From a virus, in IMG/VR virus record IMGVR_UViG_3300020183_003148, positions 1-40,322 of that record: a stretch of 40,322 nucleotides of DNA; one strand, written 5' to 3'. Of the stretch, positions 28,498 through 36,120 are shown piece after piece (within the stretch, counting starts at the first letter, position 1; each line of letters begins with the position of its first letter). A model generated the notes under the pieces. That model searched no databases and was not told the DNA's origin. It saw nothing but the letters and a program-made list of their open reading frames with translations. A program made the translations under genes and the position numbers.

Positions 28498-28926
28498 TCA
28501 CAAATACTTTAGAACTTCTGCCGGTTTTACAAAAGCCTCCTCTCTATAATCACATTGTTCCCATAACCAAAATTGTTTTTCACGCAAATACGAACGATCT
28601 TTTAATAAATTAATATTTTCCGAATGACCAAATATTAAAGGATCAGACTGTCCAAAAAGCACAATACCTGGTTTGTTAGAATTCCAAGCTAAATGTTGAA
28701 AAAAACTATCAACTGAAATCCATATTCGACATTCGTTTATGAGGTTTCGCAACTCAGTAATTGATAAATTTTTACGAAAATTTTCAACTAATTGCTCTTC
28801 ACCATCGATGCCAACTTGTATGATTGGTTCTTGAATAAGAGATATTAATTCTTTCCAATATGGATAATTTTTTGGATTTTTTTTACCATCTCTAAGTTCT
28901 TTTGAGTATGGAGAAATAATAATCAT
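28498..28926 (-). CDS. GT9-type glycosyltransferase, C-terminal half only
   Basis: A 142-residue protein starting MIIISPYSKELRDGKKNPK. It matches the second half of GT9 (ADP-heptose-type) transferases: the P-Y-S-K..R.GK.NPK.YPYW entry and the nucleotide-sugar binding end with CRIWISVDSFFQHLAW then PGIVLFGQSDP. An upstream ATG at 29010 is open but lies deep inside the preceding GT2 gene; the ATG at 28926 overlaps that gene's TGA (ATGA) and is more plausible. The missing first half is the C-terminus of the GT2 gene upstream, in a different frame by -1. This may be a true two-subunit arrangement, a -1 frameshift, or a recent break. It ends just before the gp13 late promoter. Confidence 0.7.
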   Translation of the reverse strand: MIIISPYSKELRDGKKNPKNYPYWKELISLIQEPIIQVGIDGEEQLVENFRKNLSITELRNLINECRIWISVDSFFQHLAWNSNKPGIVLFGQSDPLIFGHSENINLLKDRSYLREKQFWLWEQCDYREEAFVKPAEVLKYL

Positions 28927-29888
28927 TTTACACCATACATCTTTCTGAAAGCTTTCTCTAAAGAATTTTTCCAATTCCATTGATCCATTTTTTTGTAAAT
29001 ACTGTAACAATCTAAATCACCAAAAAGTCTCATAGCATCATCGATGCTTCTGCCTGGAACTATTTCAGGATAACACGAAAATACTGCAGCATTTTTTATT
29101 AATGGTAAAACACTAGTAAACACCAAATGATCGCCCATGCCAGAGTTTAAAACAACGATTGTTTTATCTTTATACTCTAAATGATTTCTAAAAATATATT
29201 CATCATGGTCAAACATATCCTTTTGAAATGTTCTAATGCCACCATTTCGATTTCTTAAATGCCAAGTTACTGTATTTGGTATAACAAGAAGTTTATATCC
29301 TTTTTGTTTTAAACCAAAAGTAAAAAGTGTTTCTTCTCGGTGAGCAACCTGAGATAAACCTAAATTGTAGTCATGTATTCCAGCACGATATAAAAATGAA
29401 CAATGTAAATGATCTACTTCTTTTATATCTTTAATATAATCCCATTGAATATTTTGTTCATCAATATCGTCAATCTTACCAGTTGAATTTAATCCTTTAA
29501 TAAATGGCGGTGTTAGTACAGAACCACCAACAGCACCAACATCTGATGCGGTATGTTTATATAAATTTTCTAAAACATTTGAATCAGCTATAGTATCATC
29601 ATCTAAACGCCAAACCCATTCATAATCCATGGTATTGGCCATTTGATGATTAAAATGTTGGCCTTTTTTCTGACCAAAAATAACTTGCCATTCGATATTT
29701 TTTTCATCCAACATACGAAAAAGATATTCATAGTGTTGTATTTCTCTTATATCTTTTGGTTGTTCATTATCATCAAAAATAACCAACTTATTTGGTTTTA
29801 AAGTTTGTGTTATAACTGATTGAATTGCCATTGGCAAAGTTGTGTCATATCGGCCTCTGGTCGAAATAGAACATAATATGTTGGTCAT
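28923..29888 (-). CDS. GT2 glycosyltransferase with a C-terminal GT9 N-half
   Basis: A 321-residue protein. Residues 1-240 are a GT-A family 2 transferase: STRGRYD at the start, a VIFDD strand near 36-40, and the metal-binding DDD in WRLDDDT (93-99). Residues 242-321 (KTIVVLNSGMGDHLVFTSVL onward) match the N-terminal donor half of GT9 heptosyltransferase-like enzymes, whose acceptor or second half is the next ORF. Its start overlaps the stop of the big GT gene (ATGA) and its stop overlaps the next start (ATGA). Likely adds sugars to virion proteins, host surface or DNA; the target is unknown. Confidence 0.85.
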   Translation of the reverse strand: MTNILCSISTRGRYDTTLPMAIQSVITQTLKPNKLVIFDDNEQPKDIREIQHYEYLFRMLDEKNIEWQVIFGQKKGQHFNHQMANTMDYEWVWRLDDDTIADSNVLENLYKHTASDVGAVGGSVLTPPFIKGLNSTGKIDDIDEQNIQWDYIKDIKEVDHLHCSFLYRAGIHDYNLGLSQVAHREETLFTFGLKQKGYKLLVIPNTVTWHLRNRNGGIRTFQKDMFDHDEYIFRNHLEYKDKTIVVLNSGMGDHLVFTSVLPLIKNAAVFSCYPEIVPGRSIDDAMRLFGDLDCYSIYKKMDQWNWKNSLEKAFRKMYGVK

Positions 29889-31816
29889 TTAAAAGCTTCC
29901 ACTGTCAAAAACAAATGATGTGTTTCATTCATAACATATTTAGATGCAGGTCGAACACGGTTAACTGTTTGAAAACCAGCCCAACCAAGATTTGCTCTTA
30001 ATTGTGTTTCAGTAAATAAAAATTTATGTGTTTGGCCTGGTATCCACGCATGAGCAAAAAAATGTCCGTATAAAAGAATACGCCACTGTTCAATATCCAT
30101 GCCGGTTGCTGGATTACCTTCAACAAATGATCGGCAAGTTTCTAAAAAGTCTGGCGTTTCAAGATATAATTTGCCGCCAGGTTTTAACACACGATACCAC
30201 TCTTTGAGAACCTCTTGTATTTCAAAAAAATGAAAATGTTCAATGATATGAAACGCTTTAATTTCATCAACAGTATTGTCATCATATGGTAGTTTTTGTA
30301 CATCAAGACGAACATCGCATTTAGCATCTTCAGGTGCATATAAATCAATGTTAATATAATTTTCATCATAATCATGGCCGCAGGCCAAATGTAATTTTAA
30401 AGATGGTAATTGTTGATGTTTTTGCCAAAATAAATTCATTTTTGAGGCACCTTTAGATGCTTCAGTATTGTTTCTAACCAAATAACGAATAGTAATTTCT
30501 GAATCCTTAAAGAACACATGGCCTTTTTCATATAATCTTAACCACATATCCCAATCTTCAACACTGTTTATTGTATCATCAAATTTTGTATCTAAAAAAC
30601 ACCGTGCATTAGCAACTACACTTGATATCCAAATAAAATTGTTGTGTCTTAATTGTTTACCAATAAATGTATGTGGCACAACAATATTATAAGGAAAAAG
30701 AACATTGCCGTTTTCATCACAAAATTGCGGTGTTGAATAAACAACATTACAGTTTTGTGTTTGTAAAGTTTCTAAGGCTCTTTGTAAATGATTTGGAAAC
30801 CAAACATCATCTGAATCTAAAAATGCAATGTAATCGCAACCAACAGCAAGCGCAGATTCAATTGCTCGATTTCTTGCGTAAGCTTGTCCTTTATTTTGTT
30901 CGCCTTTAATGTAAACTAAAGATGTGTTTGCAAATAAAAGTTCTTGTAATCCTTTTTCTACACCATCAGTTGAACAATCATCGTATATATAATGAACAAC
31001 ATTTCCCATATTTTGTGTTTTAACAGAATTAATGGCATGAAAAATATGTTCAATATCATTGTATAATGGTGTTATAATGCCTATTTTAAGGTGATTCATA
31101 TTTTTTTCTTTTTTCCAATCTTGATTATACTTAGTTGCAACTCTAATTGCATTCTTTAAAAATATTTCTTTCCAATTAGGCACTAATTTATTATCGTGAA
31201 CTGTGCCTTCGCCAAGATGATAGATTGGAAATGAACCAGTAAAGTATTTTTTATTAAGTTTTATTTTACTTGAAACTTCGACAACTTCAAAACCCGCAGC
31301 CTCAGTTAAAATACAAAACTCCATATCTTCACCAGAGCCTGTGCCATATTCTTCATTAAGTAAACCAATTGTGTCAAAAACTTTACGATCAATCATTACA
31401 CAAAAAAATACCGCAAAATCTTTTTGCATTACTCGTGAGTATTCTTTTACCACACAAGTTATACCACATTTTGAATTATCAAAGCCAGATGCTAATAAAT
31501 TTAACCAAGTATTTTTTTCTTGATTTAAAAATTTAGTATCGTTATTGAGAAGAATTATTTTTTCACCAGAAGAAGCTAAAATACCAAGATTTGTAGCTTT
31601 TGGATAACCAAGTGGTTCATCAGACCAAATCACTTTTAGATTTGGTATGAAAGATTTAAGATCGTTTAGGTAATCTTTTGTATTATCAGTACACCCATTA
31701 GCAGATATAATTATTTCTACATCTTCTAAATCGGTATACTGAACGATAGATTCAATACATGGTTTAAGAAAATCATCACAATGATTATATGTCGGTATCA
31801 CCACACTGTATTTCAT
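29885..31816 (-). CDS. GT2-GT2-methyltransferase fusion protein
   Basis: A 643-residue three-part enzyme. Residues 1-230: GT2 domain beginning SVVIPTYNHCDD, with a NND variant of the DXD motif at 91-93. Residues 243-450: a second GT2 beginning IGIITPLYND with DSDD at 334-337. Residues 473-643: a class I SAM methyltransferase of the type-11 kind, with motif I LHLACG (475-480), the YRVLKPGGKLYLETPD block (541-556) and a typical HIIEHF segment. The joint at residue 240 lies just after a lysine-rich run and has an in-frame ATG, so an internal start is possible. Placed between fibre and neck genes, it suggests glycan building with terminal methylation, probably of a virion or surface glycan (inference). 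Confidence 0.88.
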   Translation of the reverse strand: MKYSVVIPTYNHCDDFLKPCIESIVQYTDLEDVEIIISANGCTDNTKDYLNDLKSFIPNLKVIWSDEPLGYPKATNLGILASSGEKIILLNNDTKFLNQEKNTWLNLLASGFDNSKCGITCVVKEYSRVMQKDFAVFFCVMIDRKVFDTIGLLNEEYGTGSGEDMEFCILTEAAGFEVVEVSSKIKLNKKYFTGSFPIYHLGEGTVHDNKLVPNWKEIFLKNAIRVATKYNQDWKKEKNMNHLKIGIITPLYNDIEHIFHAINSVKTQNMGNVVHYIYDDCSTDGVEKGLQELLFANTSLVYIKGEQNKGQAYARNRAIESALAVGCDYIAFLDSDDVWFPNHLQRALETLQTQNCNVVYSTPQFCDENGNVLFPYNIVVPHTFIGKQLRHNNFIWISSVVANARCFLDTKFDDTINSVEDWDMWLRLYEKGHVFFKDSEITIRYLVRNNTEASKGASKMNLFWQKHQQLPSLKLHLACGHDYDENYINIDLYAPEDAKCDVRLDVQKLPYDDNTVDEIKAFHIIEHFHFFEIQEVLKEWYRVLKPGGKLYLETPDFLETCRSFVEGNPATGMDIEQWRILLYGHFFAHAWIPGQTHKFLFTETQLRANLGWAGFQTVNRVRPASKYVMNETHHLFLTVEAFK

Positions 31817-31831
31817 AATAATTCCAAAATT

Positions 31832-33091
31832 TTATTTCTTTAATTTATCAATTTCCTCTTTTAGTTCTTTAACAGCCTCGATTAAAACAGCTATAATATT
31901 GTTATAAGAAACTGATTTAGCTCCATTAGAATTTTCAGATACAACTTCAGGTATAATTGATTCAACTTCTTGAGCGATAACACCAAGATGTTTTTTCTTA
32001 GAGTCTTTCATTATATATGAAACACCACGAATGTCAAGTATTTTGTTTAATGCGTTATAAATTGGTTGAATATCTTCTTTATATAATAAATCCGATAAAG
32101 TATTAAAATCAGTAGCGCTTAATTCGCCAGTTGATGGTCTAAAATAAAGTTTAGATGATGATGCAGTTGCAGTTTGATTTGAGCCGGTGGCTGCAACAAA
32201 TACTGGATAAAAATCTGAAGCTGTAGATGTATCATTTGTAGCATTAATTATAGTTGATGGGCCAGAAGCACCAGAATAACCAGATATACCAGAATAACCA
32301 GATAAACCAAAGCCAGAGAAACCAGAATAACCACTAGAACCTGGATTATCACCAGAATAACCTGAAGTGCCTGAGATACCTGAGTAACCGGATATACCAG
32401 AATATCCAGAATAACCGGATATACCAGAATAACCAGAATATCCAGAATCACCAGAATATCCAGAATAACCAGATATGCCAGAGAAACCAGATATACCTGA
32501 ATATCCAGAATCACCAGAGTAACCAGATATGCCGGAATAACCAGAGATACCAGAGTAACCAGATATGCCGGAATAACCAGAGATACCAGAGTAACCAGAA
32601 TAACCGGATATACCAGAGAATCCTGAGTAACCGGATATACCAGAGAATCCTGAGTAACCTGAGATACCAGAATATCCAGAGTAACCTGAAGTGCTATCAC
32701 CTGAATATCCAGATATGCCGGAATAACCAGAGACACCAGAGTAACCTGAGATACCTGAATAACCTGAGATACCAGAATATCCAGAATAACCGGATATACC
32801 TGAGAATCCTGAGTAACCGGATATACCAGAGAAACCAGATATACCAGAGAAACCAGATATACCTGAATAACCGGAGATACCTGAATAACCTGAGATACCA
32901 GAATATCCGGAAATGCCTGAGTAACCTGATATACCTGAGTAACCAGAGATACCAGAAAATCCTGAATATCCTGATCTTCCTGAAAATCCCGAAATACCAG
33001 AGTATCCAGAATAACCAGATGGTCCTTGACCAGAATAACCAGAATAACCAGATATACCAGAGCCTAATAGGCTACTTAATGTTACACTCAT
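31832..33091 (-). CDS. Gly-X-Ser collagen-like fibre protein with S74 chaperone domain, short paralog
   Basis: A 419-residue putative tail fibre. Residues 10-270 are almost pure Gly-X-Ser triplets with X mostly Tyr, Phe or Ile (GYSGISGYSG-type); proline is nearly absent, so stability must differ from true collagen. Residues 275-330 form a head domain with INATNDTSTASDFYPVFVAA. Residues about 331-419 are a peptidase S74 intramolecular chaperone with S-D-x-x-x-K (SDLLYK), the candidate self-cleavage dyad, and VIAQEVE..IPEVV. The C-terminal end (KELKEEIDKLKK) is a short coiled coil. The last ~140 residues and their DNA closely match the larger paralog upstream. Its ATG overlaps that gene's stop (ATGA). 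Confidence 0.85.
   Translation of the reverse strand: MSVTLSSLLGSGISGYSGYSGQGPSGYSGYSGISGFSGRSGYSGFSGISGYSGISGYSGISGYSGISGYSGISGYSGISGFSGISGFSGISGYSGFSGISGYSGYSGISGYSGISGYSGVSGYSGISGYSGDSTSGYSGYSGISGYSGFSGISGYSGFSGISGYSGYSGISGYSGISGYSGISGYSGISGYSGDSGYSGISGFSGISGYSGYSGDSGYSGYSGISGYSGYSGISGYSGISGTSGYSGDNPGSSGYSGFSGFGLSGYSGISGYSGASGPSTIINATNDTSTASDFYPVFVAATGSNQTATASSSKLYFRPSTGELSATDFNTLSDLLYKEDIQPIYNALNKILDIRGVSYIMKDSKKKHLGVIAQEVESIIPEVVSENSNGAKSVSYNNIIAVLIEAVKELKEEIDKLKK
32255..33060 (-). repeat. Gly-X-Ser codon repeat tract of the short fibre gene
   Basis: Nearly uninterrupted 9-base units encoding Gly-X-Ser, seen on the plus strand as endless variants of CCAGAATAACCAGATATACC. Synonymous changes differ between units, so the array is not a fresh expansion. 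The high repetition makes slippage, length variation and assembly errors likely. Confidence 0.9.
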
Positions 33092-36000
33092 CTTAGTTTC
33101 TTATAAATGTCATTAATTATTTCTTGTTGTTCTTTAACAGCCTCAATTAAAACAGCAATAATTCTGTTATACGCAACTGTTTTTAGACCATCACTATTTT
33201 GCGAAACAACTTCAGGCATAATTTTTTCAATTTCTTGAGCAATAACACCCATTGATTTTTCTTTTGAATCTTTCATTATATATGAAACACCACGAAGATC
33301 CAATATTTTATTCAATGCATTTTGAATTGGTTGAATATCTTCTTTATAAGTTACATCTGAGAGCGCATTAAAATCAGTGGCGCTTAGTTTACCAGTTGAA
33401 GGTCTGAAATAAAGTTTAGATGATGATGCAGTTGCGGTTTGATTTGAACCAGTTGCAGCAACAAATACTGGATAAAAATCTGAAGCTGTAGATGTGTCAT
33501 TTGTAGCATTAATTGTAGTTGATGGACCGGAAGCACCAGAAATACCAGAATAACCGGATATACCAGAGAATCCTGAGTAACCGGATATACCAGAGAATCC
33601 TGAATAACCGGATATACCAGAGTAACCAGATATGCCGGAATAACCTGAGATACCTGAGTAACCGGATATACCTGAGTAACCTGATATACCTGAGTAACCT
33701 GATATACCTGAGTAACCACTTGGACCAAGATCACTAATTGAAATGGTACCAACCATACCACCGTGATATTGACAAATATAATATAATGTGCTCGGTGCAT
33801 CATACGGCACAGCAAAAATAATTACGCCAACTGCTGCTCCGTTATTAGTTACGCCACTACTATATGCGCTGCCTGTGCCTGTAACCGCAGCAGTTTTAAT
33901 CCAAAATGGATGACCTGATGCGTTTACATTAAAAATATAAGAAAAACCACGAAGCAAATATAAAGTTGGATTATTTGACCCATCAATTACATATGCACTA
34001 GATCCACTGTTTGTTACAGAATATGAGCGAGAGCCTGTGTAACCAGAAATACCTGAATAACCAGATGTACCTGAATAACCGGATATACCAGAGAATCCTG
34101 AGTAACCTGAGATACCAGAATATCCAGAGTAACCTGAGATACCAGAATATCCAGAGTAACCTGAAGTGCTATCACCTGAATATCCAGATATACCTGAAAA
34201 TCCTGATATACCTGAATAACCAGAAGTGCCCGAAAAACCCGATTGGCCTGAGAAACCAGAGTAACCAGAAATACCTGAATAGCCAGAGTAACCAGAAATA
34301 CCAGAGTAGCCGGATATACCAGAAAATCCTGAATAACCGGATATACCAGAGTAACCTGAGATACCTGAGTAACCAGAATCACCAGAGTAGCCGGATATAC
34401 CTGAGAATCCTGAATAACCGGATATACCAGAGAATCCTGAGTAACCGGATATACCAGAGAATCCTGAGTAACCGGATATACCTGAGTAACCGGAGACACC
34501 TGAGTAACCAGAATATCCAGATATGCCAGAGAAACCTGAATAACCCGATATGCCAGAGAAACCAGATATACCTGAGTAACCAGAAATACCTGAAAAACCA
34601 GAGTAACCGGAGATACCTGAGAAACCAGAAATACCTTGGTCGCCCTTATCGCCTGTTACGGTAAATGTAATGACAACATTTGTGCTATTTGAAAATGGTG
34701 TAGAAACACCAGACACATATGAAATAGGCACATCGAAGTGTAAAGTATCATCAACATGTGTGCCAGTAATAGCATAAATTACAAAGTTAAGAGTATTCGC
34801 CTCTTCAGTAATCTTAGTGTAGCCTTTGATTGGGCTTGAAGAATCGTCAATTGTTGTAAGAAACGAATAAATGTTTGAGAGGAGTCGGTCTTGATCGTGA
34901 ATAGTTAGTGTAGTTGCTGACGATAGTGTAGCATTATTAACATTTAAACGTCCTGCGCCTGGATCTGCTGTGTCTGTTTTAGTGTCAAACTTGTAGTAGA
35001 ATGATGCACCGCCAAACTGACCATCACGGCCAGAATATCCCGAAGCGCCTGAATAACCAGAGAAACCAGATTGTCCCGAATAGCCAGAGAAACCACTAAA
35101 ACCAGAAACGCCTGAATAACCAGAAAATCCTGAAGTACTATCGCCAGAATATCCAGAAATGCCTGAGTAACCAGAAGCACCAGAGTAACCAGATATGCCA
35201 GAATAACCTGAGATACCAGAAAACCCAGAAAATCCGGATTGGCCCGAAAAACCGGAATAACCAGAATTACCTGAATAGCCAGAGTAACCAGAAATGCCAG
35301 AAAAACCGGAGTAACCGGAAAATCCTGAAGTACTATCGCCAGAATATCCAGAAATGCCTGAGTAACCAGAAGCACCAGAAGCACCAGAAAAACCAGATTG
35401 GCCAGAAAAACCACTAAACCCTGAGATGCCAGAAAAACCGGAGTAACCGGAAATGCCAGAAAAACCGGAAATGCCAGAAAATCCTGAAGTGCTATCACCA
35501 GAATAACCTGAAATACCTGAATAACCAGAAGTACCAGAGTAACCTGAGATACCTGAGTAACCAGAATAACCTGAGATACCAGAGTAACCAGAGATACCAG
35601 AGTAACCAGAAATGCCTGAGAAACCGGAGTAACCTGAGATACCTGAGAAACCTGAGAAGCCTGAAGTACTATTGCCAGAATATCCAGAAATGCCTGAATA
35701 TCCAGAAGTACCAGAATATCCAGAAATGCCTGAGTAACCTGAGGTGCCGCTAAATGCTACAGTGCCATTAATTCCAGAGTAACCTGAGATACCTGAGTAA
35801 CCAGAATCACCAGAGTAGCCGGATATACCTGAGAATCCTGAATAACCGGATATACCAGAGAATCCTGAGTAACCTGAGTAACCAGAGTAACCAGAAAATC
35901 CTGAAGTGCTATTGCCAGAATATCCAGAAATGCCTGAATATCCAGAAGTACCAGAATATCCGGAAACGCCTGAGTAACCTGAGGTACCTGAGTAACCTGA

Positions 36001-36120
36001 GATACCAGAACCCGAAAAACCGGATCTACCGGAGTAACCACTAGAGCCAGGATTATCTCCACTATAACCAGAATAACCTGAAGCGCCTTGCACGCCAGCT
36101 CTTACTGATATTCTTGCCAT
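33088..36120 (-). CDS. Gly-X-Ser collagen-like fibre protein with cupredoxin-like insert and S74 chaperone
   Basis: A 1010-residue putative tail fibre built of alternating blocks. Residues ~10-362: Gly-X-Ser triplets. ~364-494: a beta domain (GGASFYYKF onward, ending in VITFTVTGDKGDQG, with a short true-collagen-like GDKGDQG). ~495-690: triplets. ~692-797: a cupredoxin-like domain with H737 (GHPFWI), C783, H786 and M789 (CQYHGGM), the full set of type-1 copper ligands. ~800-865: triplets. ~866-1010: head domain and S74 chaperone with S-D-x-x-x-K (SDVTYK, 911-916) and GVIAQEIE. AAGGA precedes the ATG. In-frame triplets run throughout without a break. Confidence 0.85.
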   Translation of the reverse strand: MARISVRAGVQGASGYSGYSGDNPGSSGYSGRSGFSGSGISGYSGTSGYSGVSGYSGTSGYSGISGYSGNSTSGFSGYSGYSGYSGFSGISGYSGFSGISGYSGDSGYSGISGYSGINGTVAFSGTSGYSGISGYSGTSGYSGISGYSGNSTSGFSGFSGISGYSGFSGISGYSGISGYSGISGYSGYSGISGYSGTSGYSGISGYSGDSTSGFSGISGFSGISGYSGFSGISGFSGFSGQSGFSGASGASGYSGISGYSGDSTSGFSGYSGFSGISGYSGYSGNSGYSGFSGQSGFSGFSGISGYSGISGYSGASGYSGISGYSGDSTSGFSGYSGVSGFSGFSGYSGQSGFSGYSGASGYSGRDGQFGGASFYYKFDTKTDTADPGAGRLNVNNATLSSATTLTIHDQDRLLSNIYSFLTTIDDSSSPIKGYTKITEEANTLNFVIYAITGTHVDDTLHFDVPISYVSGVSTPFSNSTNVVITFTVTGDKGDQGISGFSGISGYSGFSGISGYSGISGFSGISGYSGFSGISGYSGYSGVSGYSGISGYSGFSGISGYSGFSGISGYSGFSGISGYSGDSGYSGISGYSGISGYSGFSGISGYSGISGYSGYSGISGYSGFSGQSGFSGTSGYSGISGFSGISGYSGDSTSGYSGYSGISGYSGYSGISGYSGFSGISGYSGTSGYSGISGYTGSRSYSVTNSGSSAYVIDGSNNPTLYLLRGFSYIFNVNASGHPFWIKTAAVTGTGSAYSSGVTNNGAAVGVIIFAVPYDAPSTLYYICQYHGGMVGTISISDLGPSGYSGISGYSGISGYSGISGYSGISGYSGISGYSGISGYSGFSGISGYSGFSGISGYSGISGASGPSTTINATNDTSTASDFYPVFVAATGSNQTATASSSKLYFRPSTGKLSATDFNALSDVTYKEDIQPIQNALNKILDLRGVSYIMKDSKEKSMGVIAQEIEKIMPEVVSQNSDGLKTVAYNRIIAVLIEAVKEQQEIINDIYKKLR
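33540..36080 (-). repeat. Gly-X-Ser codon repeat tracts of the long fibre gene
   Basis: Three tracts of 9-base Gly-X-Ser units (about 35035-36080, 34045-34640, 33540-33715), separated by the two non-repetitive domains. The unit is the same as in the short paralog, and TGAAGTACTATCGCC-type blocks (encoding GDSTSG) recur at regular places in the first tract, showing a higher-order repeat of about 250-300 bases. Confidence 0.88.

Follow-up and report, generated by a model that had tools for sequence, protein, structure and literature searches.

Type-1 copper cupredoxins such as plastocyanin, amicyanin and rusticyanin are small soluble electron carriers, whose sites bind copper tightly and whose stability is raised by the bound metal. 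Their His-Cys-His-Met ligand set has a known variant with glutamine (HCHQ) in stellacyanins. Phages also encode a cupredoxin, namely the cyanophage plastocyanin (petE, 400 GenBank records), which is a soluble photosynthetic electron carrier and not a module of the virion. As for metal sites in phage fibres, iron is bound by HxH motifs in T4 gp37 and predicted to be bound likewise in other phage fibres; such iron-binding fibres (T4 gp37, phage R22Y) hold the metal on paired histidines and have no cupredoxin fold, and the proposed model of metal-aided phage entry concerns iron, not copper (PMC11705849). In the open-access papers searched, we found no description of cupredoxins in phage virions, tail fibres or baseplates, and by the same search copper sites in structural proteins of virions appear to be undescribed. 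Here we analyse a domain within a phage fibre that, judged by its predicted fold and its ligands, is most likely a type-1 copper cupredoxin.

The domain is encoded in a complete virus record of 40,322 bases (the window, i.e., the whole stretch of DNA analysed); the genome from which it comes is probably larger. The major head, portal, scaffold and tail sheath proteins of the window are of T4 type, and the head protein of this T4-like phage matches those of cyanophage S-H38 at 63% and pelagiphage HTVC008M at 61%. The features relevant to the fibre are listed below by their coordinates.

33088..36120, minus strand: collagen-like tail fibre ORF of 1010 aa (Pfam Collagen 1e-82 and Peptidase_S74 2.1e-15; PHROG tail fibre families)
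34042..34653, minus strand: Gly-X-Y (collagen-like) repeats, aa 490-693, upstream of the cupredoxin domain
~33724..34041, minus strand: predicted cupredoxin domain, aa 694-799 (AlphaFold2; Foldseek against the PDB; phrog_677 at 1.9e-29)
33910..33912, minus strand: His737 (domain H44), predicted copper ligand in an H-P-F motif, 100% in copper-type representatives
33772..33774, minus strand: Cys783 (domain C90), predicted copper ligand, the sole Cys of the whole 1010-aa protein
33763..33765, minus strand: His786 (domain H93), predicted copper ligand
33754..33756, minus strand: Met789 (domain M96), predicted axial ligand, replaced by Gln in three related domains and kept in the ligand-less clade
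33520..33723, minus strand: Gly-X-Y repeats, aa 800-867, downstream of the cupredoxin domain
33205..33360, minus strand: Peptidase_S74 intramolecular chaperone at the fibre C-terminus, aa 921-972 (Pfam)
31832..33091, minus strand: paralogous collagen-like fibre of 419 aa, sharing its C-terminus with the 1010-aa fibre, without the cupredoxin domain and with no Cys

The 1010-aa protein consists of long Gly-X-Ser/Tyr repeats with globular inserts at aa ~371-489 and 694-799 and the S74 domain at its C-terminal end, the combination of Gly-X-Y repeats and C-terminal chaperone that defines a collagen-like phage fibre. The first insert (34654-35010), which breaks up the Gly-X-Y repeats, is matched by no Pfam model. 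The second insert is the domain of interest, and the initial annotation rightly described it as interrupting the repeats, since Gly-X-Y sequences flank it on both sides. It had been placed at 33550-34045, where the domain does lie, but some 175 bases of that interval already belong to the repeats downstream of it, and the extent is ~33724-34041 instead. Directly downstream of both fibres are a GT2-GT2-methyltransferase fusion (29885-31816), a GT2-like gene (28923-29888) and a GT9-like fragment (28498-29010). These genes (28498-31816) may serve to glycosylate the fibres, which are rich in Ser and Tyr.

The four residues originally proposed as a complete type-1 ligand set (H737, C783, H786 and M789) are all found at these positions of the 1010-aa ORF, and ligand order, loop and predicted cupredoxin fold agree with that proposal. 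The four putative ligands (one Cys, two His, one Met) are the only residues of their kind in the domain. As the protein has no Cys other than Cys783, an internal disulphide is impossible, and we reject a disulphide role for this residue. The C-x2-H-x2-M spacing is the same as in amicyanin, as had been pointed out, with the aligned amicyanin chain reading CTFHPFM. We reject an assignment to amicyanin proper: the copper loop length is all that the two have in common, the phage domain is part of a T4-like phage fibre, and methylamine dehydrogenase, the partner enzyme of amicyanin, was absent from the window proteins scanned.

With an input of 64 sequences from the window and related loci, AlphaFold2 predicted a beta-sandwich of eight strands at high confidence (mean pLDDT 96.2, pTM 0.89). 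In a Foldseek search against the PDB, the best 50 matches were all cupredoxins or copper proteins with cupredoxin domains, including rusticyanin, AcoP, CueO, laccases, nitrite reductase (CuNIR), a CuA chimera and plastocyanin (best E-value 6.3e-5; query TM about 0.4-0.64). The comparison with known structures suggested by the initial annotation thus yields a confident cupredoxin fold, and sequence alignments put C90, H93 and M96 (domain numbering) at the plastocyanin and amicyanin copper loops. Profile searches point the same way: the domain profile matches nearly exclusively copper proteins in the PDB (plastocyanin at 8.7e-5), hhalign places the domain family on plastocyanin at 95.5%, and one phage relative matches Prochlorothrix plastocyanin (1b3i) as a single sequence at 1.5e-5. 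The window domain itself, in contrast to established type-1 cupredoxins, matches no curated model of Pfam or NCBIfam, and its copper binding is a prediction. Among the family members, 37 of 64 match PF00127 (best 2e-5), and relatives also match the NCBIfam copper-protein models TIGR03095 (4.4e-7) and TIGR02657 (1.1e-6); these E-values are modest (at best 2e-5 for the Pfam and 4.4e-7 for the NCBIfam models), which, like the lack of a match for the window domain, counts against the copper reading.

Two further groups of matches concern proteins of other origin. PF25489, named after a plant protein (At5g54830-like domain), matches 15 of the 64 family members (best 7.6e-6), so it may be related to the cupredoxins. 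In BFVD, the modelled domain resembles three pithovirus/marseillevirus "beta-sandwich proteins" (A0A481Z6J5, A0A481YVH3 and A0A481Z7Q7; query TM about 0.8), so that these giant-virus proteins are possible cupredoxins by structural similarity of the models.

The register of the first His differs among the alignments. The phage domain has H-P-F at this site and type-1 cupredoxins have P-H-N; when HMMs are aligned to plastocyanin and amicyanin, the prolines pair with each other, and the phage His44 falls two residues before their His. In the alignment to fern plastocyanin, His44 lies on the His of the G-H-N motif, and in that to CueO the phage H-P-F lies on H443-P-F, H443 being the type-1 copper ligand of CueO; the latter alignment is weak (hhalign to whole CueO, 1-3%) and was used for the register only. 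These two are the only in-register cases among the aligned copper proteins. The assignment of His44 as a ligand is supported by its loss as a set with the Cys and the second His, as detailed below.

The domain is not peculiar to the window phage. By tblastn, it was found in 358 GenBank phage records, almost all of them cyanophages, with a few pelagiphages and marine viruses, and four IMG/VR scans returned 523, 390, 88 and 68 relatives, to which the ligand-less type adds 51. Its position within the host protein depends on the group. At window-like loci, the domain is internal in all 85 cases and has Gly-X-Y on both sides in 72 of them; at gp9-type loci, it resides at the C-terminus in 80 of 94, and at S-H9-1-type loci it is mostly C-terminal. 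Such variation in architecture indicates that the module moves between virion proteins. The gp9-type proteins (phrog_677) are cyanophage baseplate wedge-tail fibre connectors, the last ~100 residues of which are the same domain (E 1.9e-29), with the ligands intact in nearly all copies sampled. There the domain forms the C-terminal end of a T4 gp9/10-type protein, whereas in the window fibre it is internal to the collagen-like shaft. The window ORF is not a homologue of T4 gp9, as T4_gp9_10_N is found in Syn19 gp9 and only Collagen and S74 are found in the window ORF. Both autographivirus cyanophages examined, P-SCSP2 and P-GSP1, carry the domain as well. Other cyanophage proteins (L086, L311-L378) end in a C-terminal cupredoxin domain, which in S-H9-1 stands behind a subtilisin-like protease (subtilase) domain.

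Bacterial cupredoxin-domain proteins, among them those of Acidobacteria (L381), Paraliomyxa (L380) and OCS116/PS1, reach 62% identity to the phage domain, nearly all with the same quartet. They differ in having single or tandem domains that mostly lie outside collagen-like repeats; the exception is a collagen-like protein from Actinomycetota (L402) with a C-terminal copy. Some of these bacterial proteins look exported, with an apparent signal peptide and a C-terminal anchor, as does the short acidobacterial protein. In OCS116/PS1/Rhodobiaceae alphaproteobacteria (L384, L387, L389, L391-L401), proteins of ~430 aa contain two tandem cupredoxin domains, both with H-C-H-M.

Running the family HMM over all fetched loci gave 312 distinct near-full domains. 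The quartet H-C-H-M is present in 275 and H-C-H-Q in three; 31 have F-(A/S)-(V/T/I)-M, the set is wholly lost in two, and one belongs to a truncated ORF. Invariance of the ligands among homologues, which had been named as a check on the assignment, therefore holds apart from losses of His/Cys/His as a set, chiefly in one clade. Down to roughly 30% identity, H44, C90 and H93 are the sole columns conserved at 100% in copper-type representatives, above every residue of the core; these representatives were picked for having the three residues, but from the full set of 79 this choice removed nothing except the set-wise losses and the truncated ORF. Some of the search peptides include ligand residues, and we therefore evaluated separately the domains found with ligand-free peptides. 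The quartet was intact in 13/13, 19/19, 38/38 and 3/3 of these; the ligand-less clade was retrieved by the S-B43 query alone, together with one intact relative. Seed bias is thereby rejected as the cause of the conservation.

Losses of His/Cys/His were always joint, affecting the 31 domains of one cyanophage fibre clade and two isolated copies, with no partial loss. In a tree built without the ligand columns, the first His was lost three times, each time with the Cys and the second His, although three events, two of them on long-branch rows, are too few for significant co-variation. Such set-wise loss is the pattern that a metal site would predict from the sequences. Met96 behaves differently, being kept in 31 of 31 ligand-less domains; its conservation is thus partly structural and, by itself, no evidence for copper.

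The ligand-less clade comprises S-B43-like cyanophage fibres (L180-L230), in which Phe, Ala and Val/Thr replace His/Cys/His of the cupredoxin domain. A model of L181, 99% identical to S-B43, was built from 29 sequences and is again a beta-sandwich (pLDDT 82.9). Foldseek returned nothing at E<=0.001 for this model, with a mixture of Ig-like and cupredoxin structures. The clade fits a former cupredoxin from which the copper site has gone, at a lower model confidence that limits the comparison. Persistence of a whole clade without the ligands means that the fibre module can work without metal.

Taken with the predicted fold, these patterns make it probable that we are dealing with a true cupredoxin whose copper site (His2CysMet) is type-1-like, used as a module of aquatic phage virion proteins and located here in the collagen-like shaft of a trimeric fibre. 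Sequence and model make it similarly likely that it binds copper. Each fibre trimer would then show three beta-sandwich knobs. The cytoplasm, where virions are assembled, contains almost no free copper, so the knobs would probably be loaded after lysis. Bound copper would lock and stabilise the knob, which may stand out from the thin shaft and offer a rigid surface for contact; in other phages the same knob would form the end of gp9 or follow a protease. That the ligands are so strictly conserved as a set speaks for use of the metal. Among the roles considered, stability and contact through a copper-locked knob most likely ranks first, followed by copper-dependent recognition or redox; given copper binding, we regard the first as having an even chance of being correct.

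A functional redox module, serving in electron transfer, in redox or copper sensing at the host surface or in copper-dependent recognition, is a sub-reading compatible with copper binding. The type-1 ligand set is complete, the module also occurs in further proteins of the virion, such as gp9 where fibre and baseplate join, and the many cyanophages that encode soluble plastocyanin suggest that copper proteins fit the biology of these phages. However, we identified neither a partner or acceptor nor a conserved patch on the surface, fibres of the copper-less clade manage without the site, and the metal in the described phage entry is iron (PMC11705849), which together leave a redox function doubtful.

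We consider it unlikely that the domain descends from a cupredoxin but has given up copper for a structural or adhesive role, e.g., an Ig-like decoration or receptor-contact knob whose ligands are relics or serve packing. In favour of this reading, the S-B43-type clade lacks His/Cys/His and is still found in fibres, its model remains a beta-sandwich, and its Met96 has a structural reason to stay. Yet relics would decay singly, whereas the three residues are universal in copper-type representatives and lost only jointly, and the ligand-less model has no clear cupredoxin match, as if the fold drifts after loss of the site.

Even less probable is a His/Cys/His set that binds another metal such as zinc or iron, or makes a Cys-His reactive site. 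Joint conservation and loss would suit any site requiring all three residues, and iron on HxH motifs in T4 gp37 and, by prediction, in other phage fibres offers a precedent (PMC11705849). No HxH motif is involved here, however; the matches of both the fold and the spacing of the ligands are specifically to copper proteins, and the HCHQ variants mirror known copper sites. Finally, a chance motif or search artefact is refuted, despite the random recurrence of short motifs: when the domain is shuffled with its composition preserved, C-x2-H-x2-M arises in just 0.017% of cases, all six frames of the window contain it only once, and the quartet recurs in the relatives, those found by ligand-free seeds included.

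On the favoured reading of a copper-binding cupredoxin, the sequences suggest that many aquatic phages may carry copper sites on their outer structures. It is possible, and put forward here tentatively, that abundant aquatic T4-like phages have working blue-copper sites in fibres and baseplate connectors, for copper-dependent host recognition or for redox at the host surface, that copper bound organically in their virions forms a pool in the water, and that one cyanophage clade has abandoned the site. The module is common, with hundreds of environmental contigs besides the 358 GenBank phage records. The S-B43 clade, set against the intact quartet of most cultured cyanophages, provides a natural copper-less control. 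Should the domain bind copper, phages of marine and fresh waters would act as ligands of the metal, and phage fibres would gain a metal-dependent stability or adsorption step. If true, the finding would extend the idea of iron in phage tails to copper, with a far more specific site.
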